A stretch of DNA of 64,000 bases from Planctomycetaceae bacterium (lineage in GTDB: Bacteria > Planctomycetota > Planctomycetia > Planctomycetales > Planctomycetaceae). A model generated the notes under the pieces. The model saw only the letters and a list, made by a program, of their open reading frames with translations, ran no database searches and was not told the DNA's origin. The position numbers and the translations under genes were made by a program. The DNA lies in assembly GCA_002726205.1 (NCBI GenBank), contig PBSL01000068.1, positions 1 through 64,000 on the forward strand. The letters run 5' to 3'. Numbering within the stretch: position 1 is the first letter of the stretch; the number at the start of each line of letters is the position of its first letter. Of this stretch, positions 51,964-63,463 are shown piece by piece.

Positions 51964-53148
51964 CTAGGCCTTGAGTTCGATTTCCCGGGGCCACTGCTGG
52001 TAGGCTTCCCAGTAGGTTTTTTTCAGGGCAATCTCATCGTCTTTTGCCGAGGGTTGGACACGGCCGTTGACGTCGATGGCCCGTGAGACGAGCGTGTGCT
52101 TGCCCGGCTTGAGATTGCCGAGATCGATCGAGAAGAACGTCCAGGAGTATTTCGCCCGTGGCTGCTTGTCGAGAGTCGCCTCGACCCATTTGCCCTCACC
52201 GACTTTCACCTCGACCTTGCCGATGGCCGTCCCGTTGTTCCATGCTGCGCCGTAGGCCTTGACCGGCACGACTCCACCGGTTGTCGGCCGTCGCGTGACA
52301 CGGGCGATGATCGACTTGAGGTTCATCTGCGAGACGGATGTTTCGACGTAATCGATCCGCTGGCCGTGCCGTTCGCCGCGGAGCGTCACGTAATCGCGGC
52401 CCATGAAACGGCCGACGAATCGGCGGTTGCGGAGTTCGATCCGCGTGAGCCACTTGACGTTGGCGATGCCGTACCAACCGGGCACGATCAGTCGCAGCGG
52501 CGCCCCGTTGCGGAGCTCCAGCGGCTTTCCGTTTCGCTGGTAGGCCAGCAGCAGCGGCAGTGACATTGCGTCGTCGACTGACAGGCTGCGGGCAAACTGG
52601 GAATTGAACTTTCGTTCGCGGGGCGTTCCCTTGCGGATCGTTTCTTCCCGCTGGTCGACCCCGAAAAAGACGACTTCTTTCGCCTGCGGCTTGATGCCGC
52701 AACTCTTCAGCAGCGATGCCAGTGGTGTTCCCGTCCACTTGCTGTTGTAGATTGCGCTCATGAAGCCCTTCGATGCGCCGTTGCCCGAACACTCCAGCGT
52801 CATCAACTGGTCTTTTTTCGGCAGCCCCTGTATCTGTTCAAGCGTCAACGCCTGCGGCCGGTCGACCAGCCCGCTGATCTGCAGCTTGAACGTCTTGGGG
52901 TCGAACTTGGGAACGCCGTAGTGCGAGACGCCAAAGACCTGGTCCTGGGGTGTGATCCAGCTGTCGAGCGTTTCCCAGTCAAGCATCTGGGGCCGGGCAC
53001 GGGGCATGTTCAGGAACGGGACCAGGTCCCCCAGCTTGTCCTGTCCCGGGAAAGCGAAATCGGGCATCGACATTTCGGCCAGCGCGATCGCGATGGCGGC
53101 CGAGCCGGTCTTTAGCGTGTCGCGGCGGGTGATTTTGGGGGAGGTCAT
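51964..53148 (-). CDS. Sulfite oxidase-family molybdopterin oxidoreductase, Tat-exported
   Basis: 394 residues. A Tat signal is present (KITRRDTLKTG at 5-15). The Mo-coordinating cysteine is C120 in MTLECSGNGASKGFM. A Mo-co dimerisation-like beta domain occupies about 255-390 (KVEVKVGEGKWVEATL, WTFFSIDLGNLKPGKHTLVS). SUOX-fold enzymes oxidise sulfite or related substrates using a haem or copper partner. ATG 53148 overlaps the stop of the upstream copper-site lipoprotein, a plausible electron partner. Confidence 0.9.
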   Translation of the reverse strand: MTSPKITRRDTLKTGSAAIAIALAEMSMPDFAFPGQDKLGDLVPFLNMPRARPQMLDWETLDSWITPQDQVFGVSHYGVPKFDPKTFKLQISGLVDRPQALTLEQIQGLPKKDQLMTLECSGNGASKGFMSAIYNSKWTGTPLASLLKSCGIKPQAKEVVFFGVDQREETIRKGTPRERKFNSQFARSLSVDDAMSLPLLLAYQRNGKPLELRNGAPLRLIVPGWYGIANVKWLTRIELRNRRFVGRFMGRDYVTLRGERHGQRIDYVETSVSQMNLKSIIARVTRRPTTGGVVPVKAYGAAWNNGTAIGKVEVKVGEGKWVEATLDKQPRAKYSWTFFSIDLGNLKPGKHTLVSRAIDVNGRVQPSAKDDEIALKKTYWEAYQQWPREIELKA

Positions 53149-53993
53149 GGCGGGTCCTTCTTCAGGTCATCCGGTGAGACGTCGACATCGATCGACGACG
53201 TCCGTCCTTCCATGATGACGATCTTTGCTCGCCACGACAACGACCCGGACGGATGGGCCATTTCGAGTTGGTACTCGCCCGGGGGCACGTCGGGAAACCG
53301 GAAGCGGCCGTCGGTCGCGGTGACTTGAAAGAAGGGATGGCCGAAGACGAAGACCCAGGCCTTCATCGAACTGTGATAGACGCAGCCGATGCGGATTGGT
53401 CGACGGATCCCGCCGCCGCGTTCAAAGGTGTGGACCATTTCACCGCGGGAAGGCATGTTGGTGTTGAATGGTCGGCTGCCGTCAGTCGTGCGGACGTTGT
53501 GGATCTGAGGATCATTGTTGAGAAACTTGACCCGATCGCCGGCCTGGATCGCCGCGGTTTCAGGTACGAAGCGAAAGTCCTTCTGGTCAATGACAACCAG
53601 TGACGACTCCCCGGATCGTTTCAGGTTCCGCAGTGCTGCACCTCGCAGCGCGACGACCGCCTCGGCCAGCTTTCCCTCATCGCCGACGTAGTATCTCGCG
53701 TAACGCCAGGGCCTCTTGGAATCGGCCCGGTAACGTACCGTGCCTTCGACGGTGCCGGTCGCCGGTGGCCGAGGTGGCGGTTGCAGCGATCGAGGAGCGG
53801 GGTCACTGGGGGGGTGTTCCCGGCCGGTGTCGACCGGTTCGGTGGGAGATTGTTCGACCGATTGCAGACCGGGTTGTTGCGGATCCTGCTCGCTGCAACA
53901 CAACCCACCGCCGACGACCAGTCCCACCAGTGAAATCAGCCAGCCGCAGCGTTTCCGGGAAAAGTGCTGGTCGGAAGCCAGTTGGCGCATCAT
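53145..53993 (-). CDS. Cupredoxin-like secreted lipoprotein with C-terminal carboxypeptidase-regulatory-like fold
   Basis: 282 residues. N-terminal hydrophobic segment LISLVGLVVGGGLCC (about 18-32) precedes a Pro-rich linker. A cupredoxin-like beta domain has DRVKFLNNDPQIHNVRT with a candidate His and IGCVYHSSMKAWVFV with the Cys-x2-His-x2-Met copper pattern. The tail (DGRFRFPDVPPGEYQLEMA) resembles a CarboxypepD_reg fold. Adjacent ATGs at 53993 and 53990 follow AGGGA; I use 53993. Possibly the electron acceptor of the downstream molybdoenzyme. Confidence 0.72.
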   Translation of the reverse strand: MMRQLASDQHFSRKRCGWLISLVGLVVGGGLCCSEQDPQQPGLQSVEQSPTEPVDTGREHPPSDPAPRSLQPPPRPPATGTVEGTVRYRADSKRPWRYARYYVGDEGKLAEAVVALRGAALRNLKRSGESSLVVIDQKDFRFVPETAAIQAGDRVKFLNNDPQIHNVRTTDGSRPFNTNMPSRGEMVHTFERGGGIRRPIRIGCVYHSSMKAWVFVFGHPFFQVTATDGRFRFPDVPPGEYQLEMAHPSGSLSWRAKIVIMEGRTSSIDVDVSPDDLKKDPP

Positions 53994-54215
53994 CACGTGG
54001 TTTCCCTGGACAAGCCCGAGCATTCGGGTGCATCCGGCCAACGATCCTCCCCGACCGTGCGACCCGATTCCGTGATAGGACTTGTCCCGCGTGAATGCAA
54101 GCGGCGGGCTGAGAATCGAGCGAGTTGCCGGTTTTGCGGTTGCGCGGCATCATGGAATCGACGGGTGATGTGGTCCCGCAATTGGAGTCGTCGATCCTTT
54201 CGAGAGAACAAGACA

Positions 54216-59510: not shown

Positions 59511-60215
59511 CTAGAGCTCGAAATGCCAGCCGTCCCTGGACCGCTTCCGGTATGCGGATTCGTTGAACCGGTAGAGTCGGGCGGCGCGGTGAGCGACGTC
59601 GGATTCGGTTTCGTTGAGATCTTCGAGGATGCCCATCTCGAGCACCTTCTTGCGGAAATTCCGCTTGTCGACTTCTCCGCCCGAGGCTGTCTCGTAGAGC
59701 CTCTGCAGGTCGCGGAGCGGGAACTTGCGGGGGAGCAGCTGGAAACCGAGCGGTTTGTAGCGGAGCTTGCCGTAAAGTCTCTTCTTGGCGACCGCGAGGA
59801 TCTCGTCGTGATCAAAGGCCAGTGAAGGGACTTCGTCGAGCGGACACCAGGCGGCCGAGCGGGCGTCGGTGCCGCCACGTGGCCGATGGTCACTCTTGCG
59901 GACCAGGGCAAAGTAGGCCACCGTCACGACGTGGTACCGCGGGTCCCGGTCCGGGTTGCCAAAAGTGCCCAGTTGCTCGAGATGGTAATTGCGAATCCCG
60001 GTTTCCTCTTCCAGTTCGCGTCGAGCCGCCTGCTCGAGAGATTCGCGACCGACCTGAATGAATCCGCCGGGCAACGCCGCCTGCCCCTCGTAGGGTTTCT
60101 CGCCGCGCTCGATCAGCAGCACGTGCAGGTCATTGTCATCCCACCCGAAGACCACGCAATCGACGGTGACCGCCGGCATCGGATAGTCGTAGGTGTAGGT
60201 CCGGGGTGTCCCCAT
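59511..60215 (-). CDS. NrtR-like Nudix transcriptional regulator
   Basis: 234 residues. An N-terminal Nudix domain (about 10-140, LLIERGEKPYEGQAALPGGF) is followed by a C-terminal winged-helix region (about 150-234) as in NrtR, which represses NAD or ADP-ribose-linked genes. The Nudix box GGFIQVGRESLEQAA-REL appears to contain one extra residue between the first Gly and Glu compared with the Gx5E pattern, which would fit a non-catalytic sensor. ATG 60215 follows AGGA; a perfect 15-bp palindrome lies just upstream. Confidence 0.8.
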   Translation of the reverse strand: MGTPRTYTYDYPMPAVTVDCVVFGWDDNDLHVLLIERGEKPYEGQAALPGGFIQVGRESLEQAARRELEEETGIRNYHLEQLGTFGNPDRDPRYHVVTVAYFALVRKSDHRPRGGTDARSAAWCPLDEVPSLAFDHDEILAVAKKRLYGKLRYKPLGFQLLPRKFPLRDLQRLYETASGGEVDKRNFRKKVLEMGILEDLNETESDVAHRAARLYRFNESAYRKRSRDGWHFEL

Positions 60216-60243
60216 CGTGGTTCCTCGCTGCGATCGCCTGATA

Positions 60244-60345: not shown

Positions 60346-61599
60346 CTAGGGAACCGTCGTCTCCTCGCTGAACCACTTCGGGAACGGCCCGGAGATGACG
60401 GTTCGCTTTCCGTTGCGAACGATCGACAGCTGCACCCGGTCGCCGGGCTGGTACCTGCCGAGTACTCGGCCGAGAAACGTGTCGAACTTGCGGACGCGGA
60501 GGATCGGCTCGGGGATTCCGATGACGACGTCCCGTTTCTTCAATCCCACGCTGCGAGCGAAACCGTCGGAGTAGACACTGGAGATCTTCACGGCGAGCGT
60601 CGTGGTCGACAGGCCCAGGTCCTTGCGTTGCGACGGGGCCAGGCTGTAGCCCCGCATTCCGGTCCGGAACGGGGCACTTCGCAGCGACTTCTTCCAGCCG
60701 ATCCCGCTGACCCACCAACCGGGCTTGGGTGCCAGTGACAGCGTCTGCAGCCGCGGATCGCCTTCTCGATTGGGACGAAGCACGGTCACGCGGATCGCCT
60801 GGCCGTCGGCGGTTCGGTCCAGGGCGTAGCGAATGTCGTACTCGGAATGCACCGGCACTTTGTCGACACGGGTCACCACGTCACCGGCTCGGACACCTGC
60901 TGCCTGGGCCACCGATCCGGGGCGGACCGATTCCACCCGGTGCCCGTGGTCGCGGTGAATCGACAGTCCGAGAGTCTCCGGGAGAGGAAACCGGAACAAA
61001 TCTCTACGGGTGAACCGTCCTTCGTGGAATGATTGCAGCAACTGGTACTCGCGAACCTTGTGGCAGCGAATGCAGCCCCTGTGGTTGGCCCTCAGCAGCG
61101 GGATGTCTCGTGGCGTACGGCGACCGGGCGTGACGGGTTGGTAGATCTTCTCGGGTTTGGCGTGCCTGGCCAGTACCTCGCTCATCGTGTGCAACAGCGA
61201 CGACGTGTTCATCCTCGCATCCGGCTCACCTTCGTCGCGGCCCCCGTAACGGCTGTAGATGTTCAGGGCCGCGTCGGTGAAAAATGCGTTCCAGGTCACG
61301 TCCAGGTCGAAGGCGAAGTGGTTGAGATTGACACCACCGAGATGGGTGATCCTCACACAGACAAACCGGCGACGGACCGCCGCGATCTGCGTGTTGTCAT
61401 GAGCAACCTGCTCATCCCAGACCCAGCACTCCGGTCAGGTCTCGCAGCGGAACACGATGAACATCGGTCGCCCGGTGTCACGCGCCACTCGCTGTGCCTC
61501 GCCGAGGTTGCGGTACCAGCCGTCGCCGGTTGGCTTCGCGACACAAGGCGTGGCCGAGAGCAGCGACAGGACCAGCAGGGTTGACGTGGTGTATCGCAT
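60346..61599 (-). CDS. Predicted selenoprotein: exported thioredoxin-like, CxxCH and PDZ-like protein with in-frame TGA (Sec55)
   Basis: Reading from ATG 61599 to TAG 60346 gives 417 codons with one internal TGA at codon 55 (61437-61435). Residues 1-21 form a signal peptide (TSTLLVLSLLSATPCVA). A thioredoxin-like strand RPMFIVFRCET then U55-P-E-C58 forms a UxxC where thioredoxins have CxxC; Cys52 also makes CxxU. The frame continues WVWDEQVAHDN into RRRFVCVRITHLGG. A CIRCH haem-type motif is at 176-180, and two PDZ-like segments lie about 205-290 and 325-400 (VRPGSVAQAAGVRAGD; SVGLKKRDVV). Both sides of the TGA are protein-like. An ORF caller would start at GTG 61356, losing 81 residues. Alternative: a degraded gene or sequencing error at a Cys codon. 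Confidence 0.72.
61399..61415 (-). promoter_or_regulatory. Candidate bacterial SECIS hairpin after the in-frame TGA
   Basis: On the mRNA strand ATGAGCA-GGT-TGCTCAT is a perfect 7-bp stem with a GGU loop. It begins 19 bases after the UGA; the loop is 26 bases downstream of it. Flanking GUC and GAC can extend the stem across a 4-base bulge. The apical sequence GCAGGUUGC closely resembles GCAGGUCUGC of the E. coli fdhF SECIS, in which the GGU loop contacts SelB. Confidence 0.6.
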
Positions 61600-61717: not shown

Positions 61718-63463
61718 ATGTCACGCGTCGATCTCCGGTTACTGCTTTTGATCGCATGTTTCCTGCCGGTTCAACTCTCGGCCGGGATCCCGGTGTCGGG
61801 TCTGCGAAGGCCGATCGACATCGTCTTGTCGCCCAGGGGTGACCGTGTCCTGGTGGCGAATCGCCGCAGTGGATCGGTGTCGGTGATCGATCGCCGGGGC
61901 CGCGGTGTCATTTTCGAGTGCCGGGTTGGGCGAACACTCTCGGCGCTGGCCGTCGTTCCCGGGACCGGGATGGTGCTGGCGACCGACGAGTCGGCTCATG
62001 AACTGGTTGGACTGGAGCAGGGTGACGGCGACCGTCGGTTGCTTCGTGTTGCCTGGCGATTGCCGGTGGCCTCGTACCCGGTGGCCGTATCGGTCACGCC
62101 CGACGGTCGCCGGGCGATCGTGGCCTCGCTGTGGTCGCGGCGGCTGACGCTGGTTCGGTTGGCCGGAAGCCAACGGCCCCGACCTGAAGCGGTCCGGGAT
62201 CTGCCGTTTGCCCCGCGGCGGTTGCTGCAGTTGCCGGGGGGACGCTGGCTGGTGGCTGCCGCCTTTGGTGGCCGGGTGGCGGTAGTGGGCCGGCGCCTTG
62301 CCGGGCCGATCGCCGTGCGTTTGCTCGAAGCCCACAACGTGGGGCGGATGGCGATTTCACCCGACCGACGGCACGTGTTGATTCCGCATCAGTTGATGGC
62401 GGCCGAGGAGGCGACGACCGAGGGTGGTGTCCACTGGGGCGGTGTGATGCTCAACGTGGTTCGCACGGTGTCGATCGCCGCGATCGAGGCGGGCACGGCC
62501 GACCTGGGGTCGCGACGCGGTCTCGACTATGTCGGCGTTCCTGATCGCGCGGCCGGCGACCCCGTGGCCCTTTGCCTGGGAGCGAAGGGCCTGAGGGTGC
62601 TGTTGCTGGCGGGGGTTCATGAAGTGGTCACCAGCGAGGACGGGATCGGTTACTTCACGCGGCAGCGGCTTGGACTCGGGCCGACCGCCGTTGTTCTGGA
62701 ACCGGTGGGGGCGCGGGCCTGGGTGGCGAATCGCTTCGACGATTCGGTCTCCCTGGTGCAGTTGTCACCGCTGGCGGTGCTGGCCAAGATCCCCCTCGGG
62801 ATGACCGCCCGGCGAACGGCGGTCGACCGGGGCGAGGAATTGTTTCATGACGCGAGGCTCTCGAGTGATGGGTGGTTCAGTTGTCGGAGTTGTCACACGC
62901 GGGGACACACCAACGGGGGACTGAACGACAATTTCGGCGATGACAGCTACGGTGCGCCCAAGAAAGTGTCCTCGCTGCTGGGAACCCGTGATACCGGGCC
63001 CTGGGCTTGGAATGGTGAGGTGCCGCGGTTGGTCGAACAGGTCAAGAAGTCGGTGAGGCTGACAATGCGCGGCCCCCGGCTCGGATCCCGTCAGGCCAAT
63101 GACCTCGCCGCCTACCTCAAGTCGCTGCCGGCGGCTCCGTCGCTGGCCGAAGCGCGGGGGACGATTGACACGGAAGTCGTCAATCGCGGTCGCGCCGTCT
63201 TTGCCCGTGCCAGATGCGGGTCCTGTCATGCGGCCCCGGCTTACACGTCACCACGAAATTATGATGTCGGGCTGGAAGACGAACTGGGCCGGACCCGTTT
63301 CAATCCCCCGTCCCTGCGTGGTGTCAGCCAGCATCGCCGGCTGTTCCATGACAACCGGGCGGGAAGTCTTGGCGAGGTGCTGGGTCGGTTCCGGCACGGT
63401 CTGGAGTCGCCCTTGTCGGATGGCGATCGGCGTGACCTGCTGCGATTTCTTGAGAGCCTGTGA
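61718..63463 (+). CDS. Beta-propeller/c-type cytochrome fusion protein
   Basis: 581 residues. Signal peptide (about 1-22) then a YncE/NHL-like beta-propeller (about 25-370, RPIDIVLSPRGDRVLVANRR with repeated xVANR strands). The C-terminal part has two haem c motifs CRSCH (389-393) and CGSCH (500-504) and LLGTRDTGPWAWNG, resembling the di-haem MauG/cytochrome-c peroxidase family seen in planctomycetes. It lies divergent to the predicted selenoprotein across 118 bp with no other feature. Substrate unknown. Confidence 0.85.
   Translation: MSRVDLRLLLLIACFLPVQLSAGIPVSGLRRPIDIVLSPRGDRVLVANRRSGSVSVIDRRGRGVIFECRVGRTLSALAVVPGTGMVLATDESAHELVGLEQGDGDRRLLRVAWRLPVASYPVAVSVTPDGRRAIVASLWSRRLTLVRLAGSQRPRPEAVRDLPFAPRRLLQLPGGRWLVAAAFGGRVAVVGRRLAGPIAVRLLEAHNVGRMAISPDRRHVLIPHQLMAAEEATTEGGVHWGGVMLNVVRTVSIAAIEAGTADLGSRRGLDYVGVPDRAAGDPVALCLGAKGLRVLLLAGVHEVVTSEDGIGYFTRQRLGLGPTAVVLEPVGARAWVANRFDDSVSLVQLSPLAVLAKIPLGMTARRTAVDRGEELFHDARLSSDGWFSCRSCHTRGHTNGGLNDNFGDDSYGAPKKVSSLLGTRDTGPWAWNGEVPRLVEQVKKSVRLTMRGPRLGSRQANDLAAYLKSLPAAPSLAEARGTIDTEVVNRGRAVFARARCGSCHAAPAYTSPRNYDVGLEDELGRTRFNPPSLRGVSQHRRLFHDNRAGSLGEVLGRFRHGLESPLSDGDRRDLLRFLESL

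Follow-up and report, generated by a model that had tools for sequence, protein, structure and literature searches.

Sequence evidence for a secreted Trx7/PDZ selenoprotein, with selenocysteine at the redox site of its thioredoxin domain, in a planctomycete

The window analysed here, a 64,000-nucleotide stretch of a Planctomycetaceae genome (GCA_002726205.1, contig PBSL01000068.1), carries a gene that very probably encodes a secreted, selenocysteine-containing member of the Trx7/PDZ family (NF041199). The 417-residue frame runs on the minus strand from ATG 61599 to TAG 60346, and its sole interruption is the TGA of codon 55, which lies between RPMFIVFRCET and PEC (the stretch spanning it reads CET-U-PECWVWDEQVAHDNTQIAAVR). 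On all the sequence evidence, this TGA is a selenocysteine (Sec) codon, and its occurrence in a conserved frame is far beyond chance. The initial annotation had proposed a selenoprotein at this place, and the proposal was borne out by the exchange of TGA and Cys codons within the family, a SECIS hairpin and the Sec machinery of the genome. The features discussed below are collected in Table 1.

Residues 27–402 of the product aligned with positions 2–386 of the 390-position profile NF041199 (trx7_PDZ_seleno, 'Trx7/PDZ domain-containing (seleno)protein'), with the Sec/Cys site present as RCETUPEC. The Pfam Thioredoxin_7 match spans the TGA of codon 55, with the PDZ domains downstream, and homology is continuous across the TGA in one frame, the nearest relatives sharing 44–51% identity. 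Where two relatives are close, they differ mainly at third codon positions both upstream and downstream of the TGA, and the upstream part is therefore coding. The standard-code list of open reading frames holds only a 336-aa piece from GTG 61356, as would be expected if TGA55 were a true stop or a sequencing error, leaving only that product or a broken gene. This reading is very improbable, however, given that 98 distinct genes, found across many separate assemblies, have TGA at the same codon, that the sequence upstream of it is under coding constraint, that a covarying SECIS is present only in the TGA forms, and that the Sec machinery of the genome is complete. The suggestion that the TGA was not randomly placed thus agrees with the unbroken homology and with the aligned codon of the relatives, which is TGA or a Cys codon (TGC/TGT).

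Table 1. Features of the Trx7/PDZ selenoprotein gene and of related loci. Positions are those of the window unless a contig is named.
Feature	Position or loci	Strand	Evidence or remark
Full-length Trx7/PDZ selenoprotein gene, 417 aa, TGA read as Sec, TAG stop	60346..61599	-	NF041199, 340.3 bits against a whole-protein cut-off of 300
In-frame TGA, Sec55, at the helix 1 N-cap, where CxxC has its nucleophilic first Cys	61435..61437	-	
Probable signal peptide MRYTTSTLLVLSLLSATPCVA	61537..61599	-	By eye; hydrophobic leader in relatives too
Thioredoxin_7 core, residues 28-86	61342..61518	-	PF13899, 41.9 bits against a gathering cut-off of 27; 3f9u, Z 11.0
UGA and bacterial SECIS, stem AUGAGCA/UGCUCAU, apical loop GGU	61396..61437	-	26 nt from UGA to loop
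CIRCH (CxxCH), residues 176-180 (Cys176, Cys179, His180)	61060..61074	-	CxHCH in 99% of relatives
First PDZ, residues 216-279	60763..60954	-	PF13180, 56.3 bits over two stretches; structure comparison
Second PDZ, residues 311-410 (model residues 289-388), approximate	60370..60669	-	AlgW, DegP and HtrA2 PDZ matches, Z 10-12; high pLDDT
Second Sec Trx7/PDZ paralogue, same genome	Contig C76:48746-49900 (L039:2154-3416)		NF041199, 450 bits; 8 kb from selA/selB
Sec-containing selD, in-frame TGA in ASCAGUAGK, source genome	Contig C13:116990-117913 (L217)		
UxxUxxC members, 33 distinct	L015, L020, L094, L124, L172, L176-L185, L187, L189-L192, L195-L202, L208, L211, L213, L214		Two in-frame TGA nine bases apart, single downstream SECIS
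Nine further members without Cys58	L151, L153, L163, L184, L186, L188, L193, L194, L210		Cys/Sec kept at 52 and 55

The combination of thioredoxin domain, CxxCH and PDZ domains in one protein had been taken for an undescribed fusion, which was wrong, since it is NCBIfam NF041199. The family is already known and catalogued, and the gene at 60346–61599 is a new member with the same order (Trx7, CxxCH, PDZ, PDZ), the same Sec/Cys variation at the site and no essential difference, except that it has CIRCH where the family has CxHCH. A 2026 review enters NF041199 as CxxU with one Sec and cites the 2008 Global Ocean Sampling paper PMC2398784 (PMC13188914); members with two Sec residues (UxxUxxC) exceed this entry. 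In the 2008 ocean metagenome survey a CxxU protein appeared as 'putative secreted serine protease MucD' (PMC2398784), and the same selenoprotein was later named PDZ domain-containing protein (PMC9312934). The 'MucD' selenoprotein, of which only two Sec sequences were then available, shares CxxU and PDZ with the present product but was named after its PDZ part, whereas the present product is without a protease domain.

The AlphaFold2 model, built with 67 relatives, reached a pLDDT of 94 and a pTM of 0.92 and places Sec55 (model residue 33) at the start of helix 34–46. In CxxC proteins the first Cys usually lies at this point. Profile alignment pairs Sec55 and Cys58 with the two Cys of CTDC in 3fk8 and with Cys-x-x-Ser in AGR2; the alignment of Sec55 with the first Cys of solved CxxC thioredoxins supports a redox position for the TGA, as first supposed. 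The thioredoxin part superposed on 3f9u with an rmsd of 1.9 over 114 residues and also matched Thioredox_DsbH and AGR2; compared alone, the N-terminal part had thioredoxin-like folds in the top rows. The DsbD C-terminal domain, DsbH/Thioredox_DsbH, AGR2/AGR3 and ERp18 thus share the fold (Z about 10–11) and carry their catalytic Cys at the place of Sec55, whereas the present product has Sec for Cys, an extra Cys/Sec three residues earlier, and the added CxxCH and PDZ parts. The segments initially called PDZ-like proved to be two PDZ domains by PF13180 and structure comparison, and both best match those of HtrA-type proteases (DegP, DegQ, AlgW and HtrA2). Unlike these proteases, the product has no trypsin-like protease domain detectable in Pfam and NCBIfam scans; only the PDZ segments match, placing it outside the HtrA/DegP group.

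Full-length matches in 59 related genomes were of two sorts, with or without a TGA within the match. Of the 162 distinct members with a readable motif, 98 have TGA and 64 a Cys codon at position 55. Residues 52, 55 and 58 are Cys-Sec-Cys (65 members), Cys-Cys-Cys (64) or Sec-Sec-Cys (33); Sec52 with Cys55 was never seen among them. One motif row, 'SAC' of L033, is a pattern artefact within the signal peptide. No readable member has anything but Cys or Sec at positions 52 and 55. The UxxC site of the initial annotation held in that Sec55 and Cys58 align with the CxxC Cys pair, but the motif is better written C52-x-x-U55-x-x-C58, since some relatives dispense with Cys58, whereas positions 52 and 55 are indispensable. 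The published CxxU and the proposed UxxC are each half of this three-residue site, because Cys52 is conserved to the same degree as Sec55, and in many relatives its position is taken by the second Sec.

Judging from the fold, there is about an even chance that the protein acts on the redox state of client proteins. After export, the selenol of Sec55 would make the attack, within a thioredoxin domain of the DsbD-gamma/AGR2 type. Cys58 would be the classical resolving residue, and Cys52, which is strictly conserved and in relatives frequently Sec, would resolve in addition or instead. The PDZ pair would capture envelope proteins by their exposed C-termini or unfolded stretches and deliver them to the selenol, giving a PDZ-targeted disulfide reductase or isomerase, or a peroxide-reducing repair enzyme. 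The reacting pair of the secreted selenoprotein may instead be 52/55, with Cys58 auxiliary and a chemistry nearer to that of CxxU proteins than to thioredoxin UxxC, because reviews label the site CxxU (PMC13188914) and nine relatives lack Cys58. Both 52 and 55 are retained where 58 is lost, and the tree shows about a dozen switches between Cys and Sec at position 52, which is Sec only when 55 is Sec; against this, it is residues 55 and 58 that occupy the canonical CxxC pair in the fold, and Cys58 is kept in most members. We regard the 52/55 pair as a serious candidate whose chance falls somewhat short of even.

The sequence shows UGA55 to be set up for Sec decoding through SelA, SelB and tRNA-Sec, with a SECIS downstream. 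The hairpin has a 7-bp stem, a GGU loop and a free energy of −9.0 kcal/mol for 25 nt, and lies within every limit of the published bSECIS model (loop 3–9 nt, stem 4–16 bp, G in the first two loop positions, spacing 16–37 nt, MFE ≤ −7.5; PMC13188914). One outer pair is lost (G-G) in this gene, which counts against it. Sec forms generally carry a 7–8-bp hairpin whose GGU loop follows the TGA at a distance of 26 nt, and in a fixed register the mean number of pairs formed was 6.3 of 7 in one-Sec and 6.5 of 7 in two-Sec forms versus 1.6 of 7 in Cys forms. Four Sec forms had only two of the seven pairs in this register; some fold the hairpin in a shifted register. In a set of 66 Sec sequences, both partners have changed in five of the pairs, and the covariation score was reached by none of 500 shuffles, while controls with a slid register scored half or less. 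A match of the window hairpin to covariance model R1 was set aside as circular, R1 having been trained with the window itself. Model R2 was used in its place, built from 42 sequences that exclude the window gene, its paralogue and the window's clade except the distant member L116. R2 found the hairpin with 31.3 bits (E 2.7e-7), and its only two clear matches in the whole source genome were this gene and the C76 paralogue, which has TGA at the equivalent of codon 55 and a stronger SECIS.

The source genome (4.86-Mb assembly, 96% complete) was found to have all the Sec genes that the initial annotation proposed to look for: tRNA-Sec (69.6 bits, gathering score 47, anticodon TCA), selA (510 bits) and selB (354 bits), adjacent on contig C76, and selD (347 bits). 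It thus has SelA, SelB, SelD and tRNA-Sec together, the set that marks a genome able to encode bacterial selenoproteins. A first survey found selA in nine of nine relatives with TGA, as in the source genome. The gene was present in 39 of 41 Sec-form genomes versus 7 of 21 genomes in which the Cys form alone was listed. In the phylum survey, selA was present in 29 of 31 two-TGA genomes, the exceptions being assemblies estimated to be 87% and 67% complete. With the active-site and SECIS columns left out of the tree, the Sec55/Cys55 distribution needs only four changes. The Cys member L013 is nested inside the Sec clade and its genome (G031) is without selA, as expected for reversion with loss of the Sec system.

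About a third of the Sec members have two TGA codons (UxxUxxC), and such members were common in the phylum survey (Planctomycetota), with about 64 among the matches listed by a hand count in which both TGA positions were checked only for the sequences fetched. Sec52 among Sec55 forms requires 12 changes on the tree and is therefore gained or lost easily. The first UGA of the two-TGA forms is separated from the loop by 35 nt and the second by 26 nt; both spacings fall within 16–37 nt, and one SECIS could thus serve both codons. The double-Sec form is absent from the reviews consulted, and no description of it was found in the main text of open-access papers. We tentatively suggest that Trx7/PDZ proteins are PDZ-targeted envelope redox enzymes whose site ranges from CxxCxxC through CxxUxxC to UxxUxxC, the double-Sec form sharing one SECIS, possibly forming a diselenide and perhaps being electrically linked to a CxxCH haem.

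The CxxCH motif noted at the outset is conserved in the family: its C, C and H are invariant, and residue 178, Arg here, is His (CIHCH) in 99% of relatives. The product has the CxxCH of c-type cytochromes in a protein whose export is judged by eye from its leader; the signal peptide of the initial annotation was supported in the same way. A c-type haem on this motif is nevertheless doubtful, and the passing of electrons between it and the selenol would be the weakest step of the proposed mechanism. It is rather unlikely that the protein is a c-type cytochrome in which the thioredoxin domain acts in the attachment or redox chemistry of the haem and not on client disulfides. The invariant CxxCH and the nearly invariant His146, a possible second ligand, speak for this, but no cytochrome family matched the protein, no Pfam or NCBIfam profile matched the CxxCH part, the CxxCH helices had no clear match in structure comparison, a match of this region to a di-haem peroxidase was weak (E 0.098), His146 is not fully conserved, and two Cys and a His could equally hold a metal.

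All-against-all clustering of flanking open reading frames at about 70 family loci revealed no conserved partner gene pointing to a pathway. A large membrane transporter (RND/MMPL-like by eye) lies beside 15 of the roughly 70 loci, and the neighbours of the window gene hardly recur at the others. One of these neighbours, a divergent plus-strand gene at 61736–63463, encodes a long N-terminal region followed by a di-haem cytochrome domain of the MauG/CCP type and is not a conserved family neighbour. Just downstream of the selenoprotein gene, a minus-strand gene at 59514–60221 combines Nudix with an NrtR/AraR-type winged helix, and its product is a probable nucleotide-sugar or NAD-responsive regulator. 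The minus strand at 51964–54041 encodes a sulfite-oxidase-type molybdopterin oxidoreductase, adjoining a gene whose secreted product shows weak similarity to copper-binding (plastocyanin-like) proteins.

For annotation, the gene is to be called as one 417-residue selenoprotein and not as the 336-residue open reading frame. A single family with Cys, one-Sec and two-Sec sites, in which the SECIS comes with Sec and is missing without it, offers a clean natural experiment. Its double-Sec forms provide a testable case of one SECIS serving two nearby UGA codons, and a test of the benefit of a diselenide versus a disulfide in a secreted oxidoreductase. The use of selenium in the envelope of this planctomycete is very probable.
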